A stretch of DNA of 38,548 nt from assembly GCA_945890755.1 (NCBI GenBank), contig CAMDDA010000009.1:1-38548 (forward strand). Reading direction: 5' to 3'. The notes under the pieces are model-generated. The model had not been told where the DNA came from. It ran no database searches and saw nothing but the letters and a program-made list of their open reading frames with translations. Shown here one piece after another: positions 23,079 through 32,328 of the stretch; position 1 is the stretch's first letter; each line of letters opens with the position of its first letter. Origin of the DNA: Candidatus Kuenenia stuttgartensis. Lineage in GTDB: Bacteria > Planctomycetota > Planctomycetia > Pirellulales > UBA1268. A program made the translations under genes and the position numbers.

Positions 23079-23117
23079 CCACACGCAGAACACCGGCATC
23101 GTACCGGTTCCCGCCGC

Positions 23118-23239
23118 GGGATCCCCTCCCATAGAAGCCCCCAGGCGCCAGCCGGGGGATCGGCTCCCATAGAAGCCCCCAGGCGCAAGCCGGGGGATCG
23201 GCCGCGCTGGATCCCCTCGCTCGCGCTCGAGGCTTGTAT
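23118..23239 (+). repeat. GC-rich hairpin repeat cluster 1 (before top6A)
   Basis: Two 38-bp units (from 23134 and 23172) contain a CCCCC-A-GGC...GCC-GGGGG stem with a 4-base loop, GCCA in one and GCAA (a GNRA-type tetraloop) in the other. A truncated unit precedes them. They are followed by an inverted relative with CCCCTCGCTCGCGCTCGAGG. The cluster lies between the aminotransferase gene and top6A. The remainder of this 263-bp gap holds nothing else recognisable. Confidence 0.8.
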
Positions 23240-23341
23240 GTGCCGTGGAAGCCCTGAACGCAGCCATTGCGTGCGGGGACTTCGACCGGGAGGTAGGCTT
23301 TCGGCTCGTTCCCAGCCGGCTTCCCCCTCCTGACGCTCCTT

Positions 23342-24484
23342 ATGGCCACGAAGACGAAGAAGACCCCGAAGGTCGCCACCTCCAAGCTCCCGGCCGTCGA
23401 CCAGAAAACCCGCCGACTCATCATCGGTCTCGCCGATGAAGTCGCCGCCGCCGCCGAGAAGAAGAGGGATCCCTGGCTCGACATCCCGACCCGCAGCCTC
23501 TCGAACGTCCGCTTCAACAAGTCGCGGAAGATCATCGAGATGGGGGGCCAGACCAACCGGCGGCAGCTCTTCAACCTCGCACAGGCCAAGAGTTACATGC
23601 AGACCCTGCTCGTCGCCAGCGGCTGCAAGCAGCTCGTCGAGCAGCAGAAGACCACGAGTATCCGAGGTCTCTACTACCTCCTCAAGCACACGATCGAAGG
23701 CACCCGCGAAGAGACCTTCGCCACGCAGGAGGAGTGCGACCCGATCATCGAGGACCTGGAGGTCACGCTCGAGAGCCTCCGCGAAGAACTCCACGTCTAC
23801 GCCAGCAACCGCGGCGGCATGGTGGGGCCGATCACGCTCATCGACTCCGGCGACGAGATCGACTGCTCGCGGATGGGCTCCGGCGGCTACTCGATCCCGT
23901 CGATCGTCGAGGCCGACATCATCAAGTTCAAGTCGTGCGACGCGAAGTTCATCCTCCACGTCGAGAAAGACACCGTCTGGCGACGGTTCAACGAGGACAA
24001 ATTCTGGCGGAAGCACTCGTGCCTGCTCACCCACGGTGGCGGCCAGCCCCCGCGTGGCGTCCGCCGGATGCTGTACCGGCTCCACCATGAACTCAAGCTC
24101 CCCGTCTACTGCCTGCTCGACAACGACCCGTGGGGCTACTACATCTCCTCCGTGCTCAAGCAGGGCTCGATCAACCTCGCCTACGAGTCGAAGCGGATGG
24201 CGATCCCCGAGGCCCGCTTCCTCGGCCTCAGGTCCCGCGACTACGACCGCTGCAAGCTGTCGCAGAGCGTGCAGATCCAACTCAACGACACCGACATCAA
24301 GCGGGCCAAGCAGATCGCCGCCTACCCGTGGTTCACGGGCAAGAAGGCCTGGCAGAAAGAGATCGAGACGATGCTGAAGAACGGCTTCAAGCTCGAAGTC
24401 GAGTCGCTCATCTCGAAGGACATCAGCTACGTCACCGAAACCTACACGCCGGAACGGCTCGCGGAAGGCGACTGGCTGGATTAG
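23342..24484 (+). CDS. top6A: DNA topoisomerase VI subunit A (Spo11-like)
   Basis: The 380-residue protein has the two parts of Top6A/Spo11. A winged-helix 5Y-CAP domain carries the catalytic tyrosine in IRGLYYLL (Y112 by analogy to R-x-x-F/Y-Y in Spo11). A Toprim domain follows with E208 in HVEKDTVWRRF and D260/D262 in CLLDNDPWGYYI. TopoVI A subunits make a double-strand break with a 5'-linked tyrosine and normally work with the GHKL ATPase subunit B. All expected metal and catalytic residues are present, so the protein looks active. The partner subunit B is not in this window. The gene is bracketed by hairpin-repeat clusters on both sides. An extra basic N-terminus (KTKKTPK) precedes the domain. 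Confidence 0.93.
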   Translation: MATKTKKTPKVATSKLPAVDQKTRRLIIGLADEVAAAAEKKRDPWLDIPTRSLSNVRFNKSRKIIEMGGQTNRRQLFNLAQAKSYMQTLLVASGCKQLVEQQKTTSIRGLYYLLKHTIEGTREETFATQEECDPIIEDLEVTLESLREELHVYASNRGGMVGPITLIDSGDEIDCSRMGSGGYSIPSIVEADIIKFKSCDAKFILHVEKDTVWRRFNEDKFWRKHSCLLTHGGGQPPRGVRRMLYRLHHELKLPVYCLLDNDPWGYYISSVLKQGSINLAYESKRMAIPEARFLGLRSRDYDRCKLSQSVQIQLNDTDIKRAKQIAAYPWFTGKKAWQKEIETMLKNGFKLEVESLISKDISYVTETYTPERLAEGDWLD

Positions 24485-24513
24485 CCACGCGCCCGCCGGG
24501 GATGGCCCGCCGC

Positions 24514-24704
24514 GGGATCCCCTCGCTCGCGCTCAGGGCTTCTATGTTCACCCATGCAAGCCCCCAGGCGCAAGCCGGGGGATCGCCTCCCATACAAGCC
24601 CCAGGCGCAAGCCGGGGGATCGCCCTCCCATACAAGCCCCCAGGCGCAAGCCGGGGGATCGCCTCCCATACAAGCCCCAGGCGCAAGCCGGGGGATCGCC
24701 CTCC
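24514..24704 (+). repeat. GC-rich hairpin repeat cluster 2 (38-bp tandem array)
   Basis: An inverted relative with CCCCTCGCTCGCGCTC (24516-24544) is followed by four head-to-tail 38-bp units at 24557, 24595, 24633 and 24671. Units alternate between two forms (five C with a shorter tail, four C with a longer tail), so the true period is a 76-bp dimer. Each unit folds as CCCC(C)-A-GGC-GCAA-GCC-GGGGG. The array lies between convergent top6A and the last gene of the PspA operon and fills most of the 299-bp gap. Confidence 0.85.
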
Positions 24705-24783: not shown

Positions 24784-25614
24784 TCACGCCTCCTCGCGGA
24801 GCATCGGCGGGGCCTCTTCCAGCTCCTCGAGCTCCGGCGGGAGCTGGAGCTGCCGCATCGTCTCGTCGGTCCGCCGCATCCCCTCGGCCACCTCGTCCAC
24901 CCGCCGCGCGAGGTCGCCCATGTCGCGCTTGGCCACGGAGCCCTCGGCGAGCGCGGCGATCTTCGCCTCCAGCCGCTCGATCTCGGCAGCCACCACGTCG
25001 AGTTTCCGCCGCGCCTCGTCGATGTTCGACAGCCGCTCGCGGCTCGTGCGGAGATGATCCTCGAGCGTCGCCCGGAGCTGGGCGGCGTCGGCATCGCCAC
25101 CGGAGGGCAGCTTCGCCAGCCGGCGCTCCAGTTCGGCGATCCGCGTGCGGATCGCACCGTCGTCGGTGTGGTCCAGAAACTCCGAGAGCGTGGCCGCGCC
25201 CCGGATCATCCGCAGGTAGCCCCAGAGCAGCCGGTCGAGTGATTCGAGCGTGCCGTGCTCCGGCCCCTCGGCCCCCGGGCCGCGCATGCTGCCCGCGAGC
25301 TCCACGAGCTTGAGGCAATGATCGCGGAGCTGGTCGAAGCGGCGCAGGAGCGGGCCGGGCAGTTGCTTCCGGATCCGCTCGTAGGCCTCACGCGCCCCAG
25401 CCGCCTCGGCCAGCCGGCGGGCCTTCGCATCCTGCGCGTCGACGGCCGAACGAAACCGGCCGTTGCCCACCATGCTCGCCAGATAGTAGATCTCCGCGGC
25501 CGCAATGAGCGGCAGCACGACGCTTGGAAAGCCGCTGATCAGCGCCGCCGCTACGCCGCCGCCGGTGAGCAGTAGATTCCACCGGTTCGTGAATGCCGAC
25601 CAGAGATACTTCAT
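24784..25614 (-). CDS. Membrane-hairpin coiled-coil protein of unknown function
   Basis: The 276-residue product starts MKYLWSAFTNRWN. A hydrophobic stretch at about residues 13-48 can form a re-entrant or double membrane helix around GFPS. A long, mostly helical cytoplasmic domain follows, with strong coiled-coil character at about 165-260 (IRTRIAELERRL, RERLSNIDEARRKLDVVAAEIERLEAKIAAL) and an acidic Pro/Glu-rich tail. I do not recognise the family. The start at 25614 overlaps the stop of the ABC ATPase gene by 4 bp (ATGA), so it belongs to the operon as its last gene. By position and shape it may be a membrane-bound partner of the PspA-like coiled-coil protein; that is an inference. Confidence 0.82.
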   Translation of the reverse strand: MKYLWSAFTNRWNLLLTGGGVAAALISGFPSVVLPLIAAAEIYYLASMVGNGRFRSAVDAQDAKARRLAEAAGAREAYERIRKQLPGPLLRRFDQLRDHCLKLVELAGSMRGPGAEGPEHGTLESLDRLLWGYLRMIRGAATLSEFLDHTDDGAIRTRIAELERRLAKLPSGGDADAAQLRATLEDHLRTSRERLSNIDEARRKLDVVAAEIERLEAKIAALAEGSVAKRDMGDLARRVDEVAEGMRRTDETMRQLQLPPELEELEEAPPMLREEA

Positions 25615-26468
25615 GACGGTGCCCGGGATGACGACGGGAGCGCCGCAGCCTCGATCTCCTCGATCCGCGTGTGCAGCCGCTGCACCTGGTCGTGGAACCA
25701 CGGCTGCGACTGGGCCTCACGGGCCGGAGCCGACGCGGCTGGCAGCCGCACCTCCTCGACGATCCGCCCCGGTGTGGTGCCCATCAGGAAGAGGCGGTCA
25801 CCGAGATAGACGGCCTCCTCCACCGAATGCGTGACGAAGAGCACTGTGGCCTGCACCTCCCGCCACAGCGCCACGAGCAAGTCCTGCATGTCGAGCCGCG
25901 TCGCGGGATCGAGCGCGCCGAAAGGCTCGTCCATGAGGATGATCCGCGGCCGCAGCACGAGCGTGCGGGCGATGGCCACCCGCTGCCGCATGCCGCCCGA
26001 CAGTTCGTGGGGATACTTGGTGGCGTCGCGGGTCGGGTCGAGCCCGACCTTCGCAATCCAGTCGCGGGCCTCCGCCTCCCGCTCCGGCCGCCCCACGCCC
26101 CGGCACTCGAGCCCGAACGCCACGTTATCGAGCACCGTCCGGTTGTCGAAGCTCGTGTAATCCTGGAACACCATGCCGCGGTCGGCGGCGGGCCCGCGGA
26201 TCTGCTCGCCGAGGACGGTCACACTCCCGCTCGTCGGCGGGTGCTGGGGCGCGAGCCCCGCCACGAGCCTGAGCACGGTGCTCTTGCCACAGCCGCTCGG
26301 GCCGAGAAACGACGAAATCTCCCCGTGGTCGGCCACGTCTGGAATCGTGAAGCTCACATCCGAGATCGCCACGTATTCGCGGGGCGTGCCCACCCCGTAG
26401 ATCTTCGTCACGTTGCGAAACGCGACCGCCGCCGGCCGATCGGTCGCGGGCGCTTCCGGAAGGCTCAT
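25611..26468 (-). CDS. ABC transporter ATP-binding protein (nitrate/sulfonate/taurine type)
   Basis: This 285-residue ATPase has all expected motifs: Walker A GPSGCGKST (56-64), Q-loop FQDY (Q102), signature LSGGMRQR (156-163), Walker B IILMDEPFGALD (176-187) and the H-loop in VTHS (H214). The sequence around LSGGM and ALDPATRLDMQ is that of the TauB/SsuB/NrtD importer group. About 55 residues at the C-terminus end in a short amphipathic helix. The ATG at 26468 overlaps the stop of the permease gene by 4 bp. It powers the permease encoded immediately upstream. Confidence 0.95.
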   Translation of the reverse strand: MSLPEAPATDRPAAVAFRNVTKIYGVGTPREYVAISDVSFTIPDVADHGEISSFLGPSGCGKSTVLRLVAGLAPQHPPTSGSVTVLGEQIRGPAADRGMVFQDYTSFDNRTVLDNVAFGLECRGVGRPEREAEARDWIAKVGLDPTRDATKYPHELSGGMRQRVAIARTLVLRPRIILMDEPFGALDPATRLDMQDLLVALWREVQATVLFVTHSVEEAVYLGDRLFLMGTTPGRIVEEVRLPAASAPAREAQSQPWFHDQVQRLHTRIEEIEAAALPSSSRAPS

Positions 26469-27397
26469 GGCGCGGCCTCCCGGCCCGAGCCGAACCCGTG
26501 CAGGAGGCCGTGCATGAACCGCGGCACGAGCCCACGTCCGCCGTAGCGGTGCGGAAAGAGGTCGCACTGCAGCCACCACAGCGCCCGGTCGATCGCATAG
26601 GCCACCAGCGGGATCACCACGAGCACGATCAGGATCGGCTCCCGCTCGCCACGCCGCTGTGACACGTTGATCAGGTCGCCGAGCCCCCCCGAATCACCGC
26701 CGAACTTCACGAGTTCGGCGAGCATCACGTAGCCGAAGGCGAGTCCGAAGAGAAGCCGCAGCGAATTGAAGATCGTCGGAGCCGCGAGTGGCACGAGCAC
26801 CTTCGTGATGATCTGCCACCGCGAGGCGCCGAGCGTGAGCGCCGTGTCGACATACCGCTGCGGCACCTCGAGCACGGCCGTCGTGGCATCGCCGATCACG
26901 AAGGCCACGCTGGCGATGAACAAAAACATCACCTTCTGGAACTCGCCGATCCCGAACAGGAAGAACGTGAGCGGGATGAGCGCCGCCACCGGAATGTTGC
27001 GGCCGAAGACGTTGAGCGGCACGAGGAACGCCCGCACGGCCGGAAAGCAGGCTGCAGCCACGCCGAGCGGCACGCCCACGGCGGCGCTGAGCCCGAAGCC
27101 GAGGCAGACCCGGCCGAGCGTCACGAGCGTGTTCGCCACGAGCTTCCGCTGCCCGAACACCTGGGGGATCGCCGTCACCGTCTCGGCAGGGCTCGGCAGC
27201 ATCGTCGGGCTCACGAGCCGGGCCTCTGCCTCGCCCGCGGTGGCAATGAACCAGGCCGCCAGCACCACGGCCACGCCCGTGATCGCCCAGAGGCCGGCCG
27301 TAACCGGCGGAATGTCACCACGAAGCGGAGTCTGCGGCCGCGCGGGGGGCACCTCCGGCGACGTGGCGGACGACGAAGGCACCTCGGGCGCGGTCAT
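26465..27397 (-). CDS. ABC transporter permease (nitrate/sulfonate/taurine type)
   Basis: The 310-residue protein has about six membrane helices and the coupling-loop motif DTALTLGASRWQIITKVLVPLAAPTIFNSLRL, with the EAA-type loop that contacts the ATPase. A Pro/Ser-rich cytoplasmic N-terminus of about 35 residues precedes the first helix. The segment TPLTFFLFGIGEFQKV-like (LIPLTFFLFGIGEFQK) is typical of SsuC/TauC-type permeases. The C-terminal 40 residues after the last helix (FPHRYGGRGLVPRFMHGLLHG) are longer than usual. Its start overlaps the stop of the binding protein-OmpA gene by 4 bp. Confidence 0.94.
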   Translation of the reverse strand: MTAPEVPSSSATSPEVPPARPQTPLRGDIPPVTAGLWAITGVAVVLAAWFIATAGEAEARLVSPTMLPSPAETVTAIPQVFGQRKLVANTLVTLGRVCLGFGLSAAVGVPLGVAAACFPAVRAFLVPLNVFGRNIPVAALIPLTFFLFGIGEFQKVMFLFIASVAFVIGDATTAVLEVPQRYVDTALTLGASRWQIITKVLVPLAAPTIFNSLRLLFGLAFGYVMLAELVKFGGDSGGLGDLINVSQRRGEREPILIVLVVIPLVAYAIDRALWWLQCDLFPHRYGGRGLVPRFMHGLLHGFGSGREAAP

Positions 27398-29199
27398 TCC
27401 TGTTCCGCGGAGTAGACCTTGATCTCCACGCGACGATTGAGGGCGTGGTTGTCGGGCTGATCGGGATCGGCGGGCCGATCCCAGCCGATGCCATCGACGG
27501 CGAACCGGTTCTCGTCGAAATCATATTTGCCCACGAGCGCCTCCTTCACGGAGCCGGCCCGCTGCCGGGAGAGCTCCTTCACCATCGCGGGGGGCACCTG
27601 CCCCTTCATCGACGAGTCGGTATGCCCCTCGATCACGATCCGCGAATTGCCGAACTGCTTCGCGAGCACCCCCACCTCGTCGAGCACGAGGTCGATGCTC
27701 GGATCGTAGGGCTCCTCCACGTCCTTGCCGTCGATCCGGCGCACGATCTTCTTCCGCAGATCCCAGCTGTTGGGAAAGAAGTGGATCACCACCGTGTTGG
27801 TGAGGATCTCCTCGTTCTCGGCCCGGATCTGCGAGAGCGTCTTCGGCGGCAGGGCCTTGGTGTATTCGTCCTTCGTTTCCGCATACTTCTTCTCCCCGCC
27901 CAGCTTTTGGATCACGGAGAAGTCCATCACCTGGTCGAACGGCACCGGCGGATTGGAGATGGCGCCGATGCGGCGGTAGAGGTAGTAGGCCTGCTTCCAG
28001 ATCCGCTCGAAATTGGCGGGATTGTTGCGGTTGATGAAGAACTGGTAGTTCTCCGCCCAGTTGGTCGAGTGGGCGTCGCCGAGCATGGCCAGCGTATCGG
28101 TAGCGGGGATGTTGTAGCCCGCCGCCATCAACTCCGCGGCCTTCGCCTTCGCCCCTTCCGTCTTCAGGTCCGCCATCGCGTCGAAAATACCCCGGACGAT
28201 CGCCTCGATCTTGTCGGGGTGGTCCTTGGCGAAGTCGGCCCGAGCGAACCAGACGTCGGCGATCAGCCGATTGGCCGTCTGCGTGGTCACGAGCATCCGG
28301 TTGCCCTTGGCCTTCTCGAGGTTGTAGATGTCGGGCGCCCACGATACGCAGCCGGCCAGATCCTTCTGGGCGTTGAAGGCCGCCGCGGCCTGGAACGCGT
28401 CGTCGGTGTAGACCATGTCCACGTCACCCGGCTGCAGCCCCCCCGCCACGAGCATGTTGAGGGCGAAGAACTGGCTCGGTGAGTTCTGTGCGAGCACGAG
28501 CTTCTTGCCCGCGAGGTCCTTCACCGTTTTGATCGACTCCCGCACGACGATGCCGTCGCCGCCGTTGGAGAAGTCGACCTGCTGAAAGATCCGGGGCATC
28601 ACGCGGGAGTCCTTCGGGGCGCCGGTGCGATCCACGAGCCCCTCGAGGAACAGCGGCACCATGTCGAGCGTGCCCCAGCCGATGTGCACCTCGCCGGCGG
28701 CGTAGGCGTCGCGCATCGTGACCGGGTTGTCGATCAGCACGAGTTCCAGCTTGAACGGCTTGCCACCGGGCGCCTGCCAGACCTTGCCCGGCTTGAAGCC
28801 GTCATTCGCGTAGATGATCGGGGCCCAGCCGGCCCACACGTTGAGCGCGAACCGCACCGTCTCGTTCTCGAGCGGCTTGTAGGCACTCGTGCCCTTCACG
28901 GGCGGAAGCTTCTCCGCCGGCTTGAACGTGTATTCCTTGACGGTCGTGGGCACGGCCGCGTCAGACGCCTCGAAGAACACGCCCTCGCCCCCTTCGCCGG
29001 CCGGGCCAACGCCTTCGCCGCCAAGACCGCCCCCGGCCGGGCCGCCTCCCGGCCCACCGGCCCCGCGCTGCGCCACCGCTCCCGGACGGCCGAGGCCCAG
29101 CGGTTCGAGCATGCCGGCCCGCCAGGCCGCCAGACCCACGAGGCTCAGGATCACCGCCCACACCGCCAGCCAAAATGGAGCCTTGGGTTCACTCGCCAT
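27394..29199 (-). CDS. Membrane-anchored substrate-binding protein fused to an OmpA peptidoglycan-binding domain
   Basis: This 601-residue protein has three parts. Residues 8-27 are a hydrophobic membrane anchor, followed by a Gly-rich flexible linker (about 40-72). Residues about 112-430 form an NMT1/SsuA-like periplasmic binding fold (VRFALNVWAGWAPIIYANDG; IHIGWGTLDM-like AYAAGEVHIGWGTLDMVP; TVKDLAGKKLVLAQNSPSQFFALNML). Residues about 466-596 are an OmpA C-terminal domain with VVIHFFPNSWDL, GHTDSS (525-530) and the closing NRRVEIKV. OmpA domains bind diaminopimelate in peptidoglycan, so the protein could bridge inner membrane and cell wall while presenting a ligand-binding site to the permease. 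Each domain call is secure; the combined role is inferred. The start overlaps nothing; the next gene begins within its stop. Confidence 0.92.
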   Translation of the reverse strand: MASEPKAPFWLAVWAVILSLVGLAAWRAGMLEPLGLGRPGAVAQRGAGGPGGGPAGGGLGGEGVGPAGEGGEGVFFEASDAAVPTTVKEYTFKPAEKLPPVKGTSAYKPLENETVRFALNVWAGWAPIIYANDGFKPGKVWQAPGGKPFKLELVLIDNPVTMRDAYAAGEVHIGWGTLDMVPLFLEGLVDRTGAPKDSRVMPRIFQQVDFSNGGDGIVVRESIKTVKDLAGKKLVLAQNSPSQFFALNMLVAGGLQPGDVDMVYTDDAFQAAAAFNAQKDLAGCVSWAPDIYNLEKAKGNRMLVTTQTANRLIADVWFARADFAKDHPDKIEAIVRGIFDAMADLKTEGAKAKAAELMAAGYNIPATDTLAMLGDAHSTNWAENYQFFINRNNPANFERIWKQAYYLYRRIGAISNPPVPFDQVMDFSVIQKLGGEKKYAETKDEYTKALPPKTLSQIRAENEEILTNTVVIHFFPNSWDLRKKIVRRIDGKDVEEPYDPSIDLVLDEVGVLAKQFGNSRIVIEGHTDSSMKGQVPPAMVKELSRQRAGSVKEALVGKYDFDENRFAVDGIGWDRPADPDQPDNHALNRRVEIKVYSAEQE

Positions 29200-29238
29200 G
29201 GATCACTGCCTCGCCTCGGGGATGATGGGGATACGGGA

Positions 29239-29544
29239 TCAGCCGCGGAACTTCGTCGCCGGCCGTGCCTTGCCCGCCATGTGCATGGCGTTCATGAGGT
29301 CGTAGGCCGTCACCTCGCACAGGAGCTGCGTCACGAGCTCATGCGCCTCGGGCGAGAGCAGCGGATCGACCTGCTTCATGAGGTCCACCACCCGCTTCTC
29401 CTGGGCGGCGAGTTCCTGCGATTCGATCCGCCCGTCGGCGACTGCGTCGAGAAACGAGTCGAGCTTACGGGCATATTCCGCGAGCATGGGCGCGTCGCTC
29501 GAGTCGTCGAACCAGGGGGTCTTGCCGGCTGCTGCCTTGGCCAT
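29239..29544 (-). CDS. Small helical protein of unknown function (101 aa)
   Basis: The 101-residue protein is predicted almost wholly alpha-helical and acidic, with no signal peptide or membrane segment (PMLAEYARKLDSFLDAVADGRIESQELAAQEKRVVDLMKQVDPLLSPEAHELVTQLLCEVTAYDLMNAMH). I do not recognise it. The ATG at 29544 has a strong AAGGAGA upstream. It lies 24 bp after the AAA ATPase stop and 39 bp before the binding protein start. Its place in a conserved-looking operon suggests an adaptor or regulator of the AAA ATPase or PspA-like protein, which is a guess from context. Confidence 0.85.
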   Translation of the reverse strand: MAKAAAGKTPWFDDSSDAPMLAEYARKLDSFLDAVADGRIESQELAAQEKRVVDLMKQVDPLLSPEAHELVTQLLCEVTAYDLMNAMHMAGKARPATKFRG

Positions 29545-29568
29545 GGGGTGTCTCCTTCGGGGGTGTCG

Positions 29569-31452
29569 TCACGAACCGATCACGTCGCGAATCGCCGCGA
29601 GCCGTTCCTGCAGGCGAGACCGCCCGCCCGGCTCGTTCACTTTGTCCTTCCAGCGGTCCGGCAGGAATCGCTTCTCGGTGCATTCGAGCACCGCCGCGAT
29701 TTCCTGCATCTCCTTCTCGAGACCCTGCGCGCTGGGCATGAAATCGTCGAGGGCCGCCTTCAGGTCCTCCGCCGAGATCGTATCCGGCGGCGACTGCCCC
29801 GCGTCGGCCGCCCGCTCGAGCCCCTTCCGTCGCGCCGCGAGCACCACGCTCTCGATGTCGGCGCCGGAGAGGCCGAGCGACAGATCGACGGGGCCGGGCA
29901 GGCCCGGCGCGAGCTTCACTCGACACTTGCGGGCCATCGCCGTGAACATCGCGTCCATCTCGGCCTGGTCGTGCGGATAGAAGAGCGGGATGTGCACCTC
30001 GGCCCGCCCCTGTCGCTTGAGGTCGATCGGCAGAAGGTCGGGGCGGCTGGTGAGCAGCATCCATACGATCTTGCCGCGGTAGCGGGTGTCACCCATCTGG
30101 CGGGCGATCATCGAGAACACGCGGGCGCTCGTGCCGGAATCGCCCCCCTGATCGCGATTGCCGAGGGCCGCGTCGGCCTCGTCGATGATCACGACCACGG
30201 GGCCGAGGCTGCGAAGCACGTCCAGGGCATGCTCGAGGTTGCCTTCGGTCTCGCCGACGTACTTGCTGCGGAAGTTCTTGAGCACGGCGCATGGAATGCC
30301 CACGCTGCCGGAGTAACACTCGGCGATGAAGCTCTTGCCGGTGCCCACGGGTCCACAGATGAGGTAGCCCATCGGGGCGCTCTCGAGCTGGCCCCGCTGG
30401 ATCGCCCGGGCGTCGGCCTGCAGTCGAGCCTTCGCCGCCTCATGGCCGGCGACGGCGTCGAGCGTGAGTCGCGGCTGGATGAACTCCACGAGCCCCTGGC
30501 ACGACCGCTCGATCATGTCCTTCTTGCGGGCGGCAAACTCCGGCCCATCCGGCGGCGTGCCCTCGCGAGCCGAGAGGGCGATCACCGCGCGAAGACTCTC
30601 GAGCGTGAGGCCGCCGGAGAGGGCGGCCACCCGCTTCACGCCATCCAGGCGGTCGGCAGGCATGCCGGCTGCAGCCGCCGTGGCCAGGGCGAACCGCTCC
30701 CGCTCGGCCGCATCAGGGAGCGGCAGGTCGATGGCGGTCACGGCTGGATTCGTGGCCAGCCGGGGATGCACCTCGGCGAGCGTGTCGGCAAGCATCACGA
30801 CGGCCACGTTCACCCTCCGCAGGAGCGGATTGGAAGCCCAGCCCAGGATCCGCACCAGCCGCCCCGCCCCGGCCCGCGACCCAGCCGAGGCCTCACCTGC
30901 GGGAGCGAGATACTGGGCGTAGTCGAGCACGATCGCGATCCGCTTCCGCTGCTCGGGCGGGTCGATGAGATTTCGTTCGAAGATGGCGTCGATCGCAGCG
31001 ATCGCCTGGTCTGGATCCCGCGGCCAGTTGGCCGCATTGCCCAGCCGTTCCGTGAGCCATTGAGCCATCGCCCGCAGGCGGGCGGGATCAGAGCCGGCCA
31101 GCGGCCGCAGCCCCTTGCCGACGTCGTAGGCCAGCACGATATCCCAGCGGCCGAACATCTCACGGGCCAGGAAATCGGGCACGGTGCCCCAGGCGGCCAC
31201 GTCGTCGCGGCTACCAGACGCCGCCGGTGCGGCCACCGGCACGAGATCCCGCACGTTGCCGTGGAGCATGAACACACAACTCGTGCCGGAGAGGTAGGCG
31301 TCGCCCAGCCGCTCGGCCCAGGTCGGACACCACTCCGGAAGTGCAGCCGAGCCAGCCGTTCGCCCCGCCACCGTGCCGAGCGAACCGGCTGCTGCATCAG
31401 TGGCACCGGGGCGCGGGCCTGCGGCGTCTGCATTGGCGGCGGAGATCGTCAT
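29569..31452 (-). CDS. Classic AAA ATPase with degenerate N-terminal AAA-like domain (Ycf46/Cdc48-like)
   Basis: The 627-residue protein has an active C-terminal AAA domain: Walker A CGPVGTGKSF (366-375), pore loop FRSKYVGETEGN (394-405), Walker B VVIIDEAD (420-427), sensor region LLTSRPD (466-472), arginine region KRQGRAEVHIPL and GLSGADIESVV. This is the pore-loop and second-region-of-homology pattern of the classic AAA clade (Vps4, Cdc48, FtsH). The first about 310 residues resemble a degenerate AAA module, with a Walker-B-like IAIVLDYAQYL (172-182) but no Walker A. This two-part layout recalls Ycf46-type ATPases. Such enzymes thread or disassemble protein polymers. Immediately downstream of the PspA-like gene, it could remodel that polymer, an inference by analogy to Vps4 and ESCRT-III. 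Confidence 0.93.
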   Translation of the reverse strand: MTISAANADAAGPRPGATDAAAGSLGTVAGRTAGSAALPEWCPTWAERLGDAYLSGTSCVFMLHGNVRDLVPVAAPAASGSRDDVAAWGTVPDFLAREMFGRWDIVLAYDVGKGLRPLAGSDPARLRAMAQWLTERLGNAANWPRDPDQAIAAIDAIFERNLIDPPEQRKRIAIVLDYAQYLAPAGEASAGSRAGAGRLVRILGWASNPLLRRVNVAVVMLADTLAEVHPRLATNPAVTAIDLPLPDAAERERFALATAAAAGMPADRLDGVKRVAALSGGLTLESLRAVIALSAREGTPPDGPEFAARKKDMIERSCQGLVEFIQPRLTLDAVAGHEAAKARLQADARAIQRGQLESAPMGYLICGPVGTGKSFIAECYSGSVGIPCAVLKNFRSKYVGETEGNLEHALDVLRSLGPVVVIIDEADAALGNRDQGGDSGTSARVFSMIARQMGDTRYRGKIVWMLLTSRPDLLPIDLKRQGRAEVHIPLFYPHDQAEMDAMFTAMARKCRVKLAPGLPGPVDLSLGLSGADIESVVLAARRKGLERAADAGQSPPDTISAEDLKAALDDFMPSAQGLEKEMQEIAAVLECTEKRFLPDRWKDKVNEPGGRSRLQERLAAIRDVIGS

Positions 31453-31479
31453 AGGGGCTCTTCGAGGAAGCGTGAGCGT

Positions 31480-32229
31480 TTAGCCCTGGGTCTGCCGGGC
31501 CCGTTCGGTGCCCAGCTCCTTGTCGTCCGCCGACACACCGGCAGTCTCGGGCGTCACCATCCCCATCTCGATCTCGAACTCGCGGAGCGCCTTGTCGGCC
31601 ATCGCCTTCTCGACCGCCTCTTCCTGCTTGATCGCCTCGAGGCCTTCGCCAGAGAGGTCGGCTGCCACCCGGACCTTCGCGCGATTGAGGCCGATCTTGT
31701 CTTGGATCACGTCCTCGATCTGGCCGAAGTCGGTCGTGACGTCGAAGTTGAACGTGTGCGCGAGTTTGGCCAGCTCGGCCTCGGCCCGCGAGAGCTTCAG
31801 TTCGGCGTCGTATTTCTGGATCTTCTGCTTGAGGTCGGCGAGCTTCTTCGTGGCGTGCTTGATCTTGGTGACGTTGTTGTTGTAGGCCGTCTCATGCAGC
31901 TTGAGCTGGGCCTCGTTCTCGGCCAGTTCCTTCTTGGCCTTCTGCAGTTCGAGCGCGAACTTCGAAGCCGTCTCCCGCTCGCCCGCCTGGAGGTAGGCCT
32001 TCACCCGGGCCTCGAGCGACTCGACATGCTGCCGGTCGCCGTTCACCTGCCTCGTGACCCGCTCCACGAGCGCCCGATACTGCTCGAGCCCCTCGCGGCC
32101 GTCCTTCATCTGGTCGACTGCCTTGTCATACTCGTACTGGAGCTGGGCGATTGGATCGGCCGTCCAGAAGAAGTTGGCGACCTTGTTCATCTGGGCCGCA
32201 AGGGCCTTCCACAGCTTCCCCAGGATCAT
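31480..32229 (-). CDS. PspA/IM30 family (ESCRT-III superfamily) coiled-coil protein
   Basis: This 249-residue protein is almost wholly helical and coiled-coil, as PspA/IM30 proteins are. The N-terminal amphipathic helix (MILGKLWKALAAQMNKVANFF) is followed by DPIAQLQYEYDKAVDQMKDGREGLEQYRALVERVT, which matches the PspA helix 1-2 region. Long heptad segments follow (ELQKAKKELAENEAQLKLHETAYNNNVTKIKHATKKLADLKQKIQKY). PspA-type proteins polymerise on inner-membrane surfaces and protect them under stress. The ATG at 32229 is chosen by the family N-terminus and GGAG upstream; a longer frame open to 32328 runs into the promoter. It is the first gene of the operon. Confidence 0.9.
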   Translation of the reverse strand: MILGKLWKALAAQMNKVANFFWTADPIAQLQYEYDKAVDQMKDGREGLEQYRALVERVTRQVNGDRQHVESLEARVKAYLQAGERETASKFALELQKAKKELAENEAQLKLHETAYNNNVTKIKHATKKLADLKQKIQKYDAELKLSRAEAELAKLAHTFNFDVTTDFGQIEDVIQDKIGLNRAKVRVAADLSGEGLEAIKQEEAVEKAMADKALREFEIEMGMVTPETAGVSADDKELGTERARQTQG

Positions 32230-32299
32230 GGCACGGTATCTCCGCAGGACGGGCAGGTCGTTGGAAATCGAGGCCGGCACCGCTGCCGCCCGACGCGTC

Positions 32300-32328
32300 G
32301 TGATACCGCTGCCGTGGGGCTGCGTCAA
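32300..32328 (-). promoter_or_regulatory. sigma70-type promoter of the PspA-AAA-ABC operon
   Basis: On the minus strand TTGACG (32328-32323), 17 bp and TATCAC (32305-32300) fit a sigma70 promoter, with a leader of about 65 nt containing GGAG before the PspA-like start. No sigma54 (GG-N10-GC) signature was found, so a PspF-type control as in E. coli is not supported. Of the 328-bp gap up to 32557, the part at about 32330-32506 shows nothing recognisable. Confidence 0.6.

Follow-up and report, generated by a model that had tools for sequence, protein, structure and literature searches.

An operon joining PspA, an AAA ATPase and an ABC complex in Candidatus Kuenenia stuttgartensis: a place to seek a possible ESCRT-III/Vps4 counterpart in bacteria

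By comparative genomics only, Ravi et al. 2024 (PMC11237479) described gene sets in which PspA is accompanied by a two-domain AAA protein, an ATP-binding cassette (ABC) ATPase, a permease and a binding protein fused to OmpA (example OGG56892.1), and proposed for them a membrane-remodelling role tied to solute transport, a logic similar to that of the model put forward below. The operon analysed here lies in a stretch of 38,548 nucleotides from Candidatus Kuenenia stuttgartensis (GCA_945890755.1, contig CAMDDA010000009.1, positions 1-38,548 of the forward strand; hereafter the window) and fits this class, as PspA, AAA, ABC ATPase, permease and PBPB-OmpA protein are gathered in one operon. The gene set, whose novelty as a full set was implied in the initial annotation, had therefore already been published, and the operon is a well-preserved new example of it; no experimental study of the gene set was found in a literature search. 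What is added here is a single conserved promoter, a partner protein of 101 amino acids (aa), a membrane-hairpin coiled-coil protein (hereafter the coil) as partner of the transporter, the modular splitting of the set, the retention of the binding protein after loss of the transporter, and a motif in the tail of PspA. The main text of Ravi et al. 2024 (PMC11237479) names neither the 101-aa partner nor the C-terminal PspA motif, and it speaks of 'Snf7 homologs with a TM segment' (TM, transmembrane), which may or may not correspond to the coil of this operon.

The ESCRT-III/Vps4 system of archaea and eukaryotes resembles the operon in that a polymer of the ESCRT-III superfamily adjoins a classic-clade AAA and in the conserved tail of the polymer subunit; it differs in that no MIT domain is recognised in the operon AAA, which carries a degenerate-looking second AAA-like half, and in that the operon has no winged-helix ESCRT-II partner. 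The tail motif of the operon PspA is, to our knowledge, unlike the known MIMs. With the proteobacterial pspFABC system the operon shares PspA as an inner-membrane effector, whereas no PspC (PF04024) match was found in this genome, which is 88% complete, and the operon AAA is not of the type of PspF, the sigma-54 activator. A structural study of PspA (2024; PMC11746142) named chaperones or PspF as possible agents of re-assembly, 'in analogy to Vps4'. The TauABC, SsuABC and urea-guanidine importers have a binding protein, a permease and an ATPase of the same families, whereas the binding protein of the operon is anchored by a hydrophobic N-terminal helix, is fused to OmpA and scores far below all curated equivalog cut-offs.

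The seven genes almost certainly constitute a real unit. They occupy about 7.5 kb of the minus strand, running from 32328 to 24784 in the order promoter, PspA, AAA ATPase, 101-aa helical protein, binding protein/OmpA, permease, ABC ATPase and coil (Table 1), with ATGA overlaps at the binding protein/permease, permease/ATPase and ATPase/coil joins and gaps of 27, 24 and 39 bp between the remaining genes. The seven open reading frames and families of the initial annotation agree with the positions and family scans (PspA_IM30, AAA, NMT1 + OmpA, BPD_transp_1, ABC_tran), and the three ATGA joins that it placed across the four-gene end are all present in the sequence; the 101-aa protein and the coil matched no curated family in these scans. 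The start of PspA is most likely the ATG at 32229 rather than an upstream TTG. With the binding protein as query, 84,980 species genomes yielded 80 loci, in which all seven proteins were then compared by tblastn, and the order PspA-AAA-small-binding protein-permease-ABC-coil is kept in most of the loci long enough to judge, among them dozens from Planctomycetota, a conservation far beyond chance. Rearranged versions are found in metagenome-assembled genomes labelled Acidobacteria and in one labelled Gemmatimonadetes, with the order PspA-binding protein-permease-ABC-coil-AAA(-small) (L105, L110, L111), and in distant planctomycetes, with PspA-binding protein-permease-ABC-coil-AAA (L174, L177, L178) or permease-ABC-coil-AAA with PspA and the binding protein nearby (L176, L181). 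The flanking genes (a leucine-rich repeat (LRR) protein, a GFO/IDH/MocA protein, Top6A and DegT) are common to the closer relatives only, and it is therefore the cassette that is conserved, not the neighbourhood. Gene order across relatives, on which the initial annotation had staked its proposal, is thus kept, although halves of the cassette can separate.

Table 1. Features of the operon in the window, with the evidence for each assignment
Feature	Position	Strand	Evidence
Promoter pattern TTGACG-N17-TATCAC before pspA	32300..32328	(-)	recurs in diverged relatives
PspA/IM30 protein, bacterial ESCRT-III superfamily, 249 aa	31480..32229	(-)	PF04012, 54.2 bits
C-terminal tail motif of PspA, FEIEMGMVTPETA...KELG, at residues 218-240; candidate tail for AAA docking	31510..31578	(-)	motif tracks AAA
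AAA ATPase, 627 aa: degenerate-looking N-terminal half and one canonical AAA domain	29569..31452	(-)	PF00004
101-aa helical protein, AAA partner	29239..29544	(-)	conserved residues, predicted fold, co-occurrence with AAA
Taurine/NMT1-type binding protein fused to OmpA, membrane-anchored, 601 aa	27394..29199	(-)	PF09084, PF13379, PF00691
OmpA peptidoglycan-binding domain, residues 505-585 of the binding protein	27445..27687	(-)	PF00691
ABC permease, TauC/SaoP type, 310 aa	26465..27397	(-)	PF00528, 64 bits
ABC ATPase, TauB type, 285 aa counted from the ATG inside the ATGA overlap	25611..26468	(-)	PF00005, 100 bits
Membrane-hairpin coiled-coil protein (coil), 276 aa	24784..25614	(-)	42-sequence family, predicted fold

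The promoter pattern lies 99 bases before the pspA ATG, and relatives whose upstream DNA has otherwise diverged keep both boxes and the 17-base spacing, as TTGAC[G/T/A]-N17-TATCA[C/A] or with TAAGAC, at about -78 to -113. The looser pattern TTGAC-N18-TANNA occurs at most 150 bases before pspA in 26 of 68 loci against 0.04 expected from mononucleotide shuffling, the 68 upstreams including close relatives, so that the 26 matches are not independent; for each of the remaining six genes, with 59 to 71 upstreams apiece, the count was 0. A strict sigma-70 scan returned 0 sites because the final base of the -10 box is C, and the absence of a promoter, which that scan taken alone would imply, is overturned by the conserved boxes of the relatives. 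The promoter proposed at this position in the initial annotation is thereby borne out, and on the simplest reading of these sequence patterns a single main promoter would serve the whole operon. In four loci (L052, L053, L055, L003) a tRNA-like gene, apparently tRNA-His in three of them as read by eye, stands directly upstream of pspA and replaces the promoter region of the relatives.

Co-occurrence was followed in 148 genomes of the class and in 294 genomes phylum-wide, with statistics that ignore relatedness. In the former sample the PspA clade is present in 29 genomes, the close form of the AAA in 27, the 101-aa protein in 27, the coil in 11 and the close form of the binding protein in 10, with 3 more genomes holding a binding protein at about 30% identity. 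The 101-aa protein tracks the AAA (25 of the 27 genomes with AAA versus 2 of the 121 others), and the coil tracks the binding protein, being present in all 10 genomes and in one with the divergent form. Phylum-wide, 26 genomes have the binding protein, and the AAA is found in 24 of these versus 21 of the 268 others (p 1e-20, relatedness uncorrected). Parts of the cassette can be dispersed: the complete genome G073 keeps all of them in three places (PspA-AAA-small at about 0.57 Mb, binding protein-permease at about 8.50 Mb and ABC ATPase-coil at about 0.34 Mb), and G099, G115 and G044 have the cassette as two separate halves, each with a PspA of its own. The proposal in the initial annotation of one operon and functional unit is strongly supported by the kept order, the conserved promoter and a co-occurrence that persists even when the parts are dispersed.

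These distributions also bear on a different and rather unlikely reading, according to which two machines share one promoter, namely a repair triad of PspA, AAA and 101-aa protein and a co-regulated ordinary importer for a taurine-like or other small solute, for instance an osmolyte during envelope stress. This reading would account for the finding that, of the Planctomycetia genomes with the AAA, most have the triad and lack the transporter (AAA in 27, the close form of the binding protein in 10), for the split loci of G099, G115 and G044, for the intact ABC motifs described below, and for G197, a genome in which the binding protein, permease and ABC ATPase are present and the AAA was not found, so that the transporter can stand alone. 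Nevertheless, it sits poorly with a binding protein whose genome nearly always has the AAA as well (24 of 26 have both), with the PspA carried by the split transporter half, and with the retention of the binding protein in G046 and G066, where the permease is absent.

PspA is of the usual length and matches PF04012 (PspA_IM30) well above the curated cut-off of 33.9 bits, and it is the only PF04012 match in its genome (88% complete). Its C-terminal tail carries the pattern F-x(3-5)-G-[LMIV]-x-P, most often in the form FE-x-x-x-GLVTPETA...K-x-LG, which is present in 88 of 90 PspAs from AAA operons, among them PspAs of deep lineages that show little conservation elsewhere in the protein. The motif occurs in none of the 4 PspAs without a linked AAA, a small sample that covers two lineages: the second copies in L081, L095 (Aquisphaera insulae) and L160, and the PspA of G102, a genome in which no AAA match was found. 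In the L081, L095 and L160 genomes the AAA-linked copies do carry the G-L-x-T-P core. By analogy with Vps4, which grips the tails of ESCRT-III, this is the distribution that would be expected of a tail gripped by the AAA. In G102 (L146:3772-7869), PspA follows two genes that by their look resemble membrane proteins of the band-7/flotillin type.

In the AAA ATPase, only the C-terminal AAA domain is recognised by Pfam (PF00004, 73 bits, residues 364-489); in 89 sequences the Walker A and B motifs are kept, as are the pore-loop region and the GR of the second region of homology, and the protein falls into the classic pore-loop clade, with chains of Cdc48, AFG2 and p97 as its nearest matches in the PDB. 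The N-terminal half looks, from its sequence, like a degenerate AAA; when the profiles of the two halves were compared, Walker B and the next strands came into register at a negligible, non-significant probability. For the operons of their class, Ravi et al. 2024 (PMC11237479) state that the N-terminal half is an inactive AAA. The 101-aa protein, predicted to form four helices (predicted local distance difference test (pLDDT) 81), has invariant W11, D37, E44, Q48, E49, H68, T72 and L75 in 53 sequences, and neither a PDB fold match below E 2 nor a sequence-profile match of weight was found for it. In deep planctomycete lineages without the 101-aa protein, a different protein of 200-250 aa stands beside the AAA or PspA (L174:11408-12019, L176:9353-10015, L181:9559-10302).

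All the parts of a type I ABC importer of the TauABC kind are present, that is, a binding protein, a BPD_transp_1 permease and an ATPase with Walker A, Walker B and signature motifs. The binding protein has a single N-terminal hydrophobic segment (residues 7-25) and matches NMT1 (38 bits) and OmpA (PF00691, 35 bits), and a taurine-binding protein and A. baumannii Omp38 are among its solved relatives. Its presumed pocket is the most conserved part and is rich in tryptophan (VWAGW, IGWGTLDM, SNGGDGI, VSWAPDIY, ADVWFARADF), which implies, as far as sequence conservation can tell, one ligand throughout the family. As to its identity, taurine, sulfonate, nitrate and urea all fell far below the cut-offs of the curated NCBIfam transporter models; quaternary amines, hinted at by a GbcA-like Rieske protein in a divergent operon described below, were likewise set aside, that protein itself scoring far below its cut-off. 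In the OmpA domain, eGHtD and LSxxRA are kept in 73 sequences, and their conserved Asp and Arg correspond to the diaminopimelate-binding residues of known OmpA domains (A. baumannii). The best NCBIfam models for the permease (PF00528, BPD_transp_1) are TauC and SaoP, below cut-off, and the ABC ATPase (PF00005, ABC_tran) conserves GPSGCGKST, LSGGMRQR and ILMDEP. The coil belongs to a family of 42 sequences with a conserved AF...WNLL start and an LDRLLW core, and its model shows two short hydrophobic helices followed by long helices (pLDDT 82). A reading of it as a possible second ESCRT-III/Snf7 protein drew no significant profile or fold match: the profile comparison with PspA gave 0.1%, and the CdvB2 filament appeared at E 0.65 among generic coiled coils.

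Of the two roles offered for the ABC module in the initial annotation, sensing or moving a ligand, the intact Walker and signature motifs favour transport, whereas G046 and G066, in which the binding-protein/OmpA fusion stands without a permease, favour sensing. These two genomes combine PspA-AAA-small with a divergent fusion (about 29%), and a permease of this kind was not found anywhere in either of them, the G066 contig ending after the fusion; in G046 a VWA lipoprotein and then a coil follow the binding protein, at the usual place of the permease and ABC ATPase. The arrangement at L143:2966-10813 is PspA, AAA, small protein, an oxidase-like gene, binding protein/OmpA, VWA lipoprotein and coil, and no ABC genes. 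In another, divergent planctomycete operon (L157:1835-12982, L161:4134-15290), an AAA at 28-29% identity is found with two binding-protein/OmpA fusions, VWA, a membrane coil, a PspA-sized coiled coil, a lipoprotein binding protein, a permease, the GbcA-like Rieske oxygenase and, on the other strand, a divergent ABC ATPase. It has the look of a second layout, so far unstudied, for the same idea; profile comparisons of its coil and PspA-sized protein with those of the operon were not significant, and the proteins are called analogous only. The recurrence of the fusion and a membrane coil where the transporter has been lost or rebuilt suggests, from gene content, that sensing may be at least part of the job of the operon. 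Taken to its end, this would give a non-transporting ABC sensor with mechanotransmission of the FtsEX kind, in which the tethered binding protein would report either wall distance or a fragment released from the wall, and the coil would change its conformation, driven by ATP hydrolysis. Such a sensor, consistent with the conserved wall-binding residues of the OmpA fusion, with the missing permease of G046 and G066 and the VWA lipoprotein between binding protein and coil in G046, and with the pairing of AAA, two fusions, VWA and membrane coil in the divergent operon, is nonetheless improbable, given that the permease is by family a normal type I importer subunit (TauC/SaoP type) and that few parts are as well conserved as the presumed binding pocket.

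In our best guess, to which we give about even chances and which leans on analogy with ESCRT-III, a Vps4-like AAA would recycle the PspA polymer, which would also be linked to an ABC complex anchored in the wall. PspA would polymerise on the inner membrane and repair or remodel it; the AAA, aided by the 101-aa protein, would grip the C-terminal tail of PspA and thread the subunit through its pore, and the polymer would thus be recycled as ESCRT-III is by Vps4. The binding protein, anchored in the inner membrane and, via OmpA, in the peptidoglycan, would take one conserved ligand and dock on the permease/ATPase pair, and the coiled-coil hairpin beside the transporter may pass on the state of the latter to the PspA polymer and thereby couple membrane repair to a periplasmic signal or to the solute imported. 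The role in envelope stress or membrane repair inferred in the initial annotation, with the AAA as a possible remodeller, is plausible from what is known of the families and from the PspA tail motif that tracks the AAA. More tentatively, the operon may encode an ESCRT-III/Vps4-like pair with its own envelope sensor, in which the AAA would recycle the polymer via the PspA tail (F-x-G-[LMI]-x-T-P-E-T) and the peptidoglycan-tethered ABC complex and membrane coil would tell where and when. Several observations weigh against recycling by a Vps4-like AAA coupled to the ABC complex. The sensor-1 of the AAA reads TSRPD, not TNRPD, with Ser where Cdc48 has Asn, and among Pfam hits up to E 0.01 there was no match to MIT or Vps4_C in this protein, so that a Vps4-like action is drawn by analogy only; the PspAs without a linked AAA amount to four sequences; the coil resembles neither PspA nor any solved fold to a significant degree; and in G197 the transporter occurs with no AAA found.

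Beside the operon, at 23342-24484, lies a gene for Top6A (DNA topoisomerase VI subunit A) in a bacterium (NCBIfam PRK04342.1-2, 550 bits, over cut-off), which adjoins the operon in close relatives too. GC-rich 38-bp repeat units (e.g. CCCATACAAGCCCCCAGGCGCAAGCCGGGGGATCG) are present on both sides of the Top6A gene, at 23113-23241 and 24511-24702, and create spurious open reading frames near it. No Rfam match to a structured RNA was found in the region. A role in anti-phage defence was considered and rejected, PADLOC giving only generic AAA, ABC and coiled-coil matches, with an IetA match that is the AAA domain alone.

To the question whether bacterial ESCRT-III polymers have a dedicated ATPase that dismantles them, the operon contributes a concrete, conserved candidate pair, together with a candidate docking tail and a natural experiment in the genomes that hold two PspAs, one tailed and one not. 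If an ESCRT-III/Vps4-like pair with an envelope sensor is indeed encoded, the PspA tail and its 101-aa companion protein would count as new components, and the operon would join an ABC complex to a polymer for membrane repair, a rare coupling. The operon is thus a good place to seek the bacterial counterpart of the ESCRT-III/Vps4 pair.

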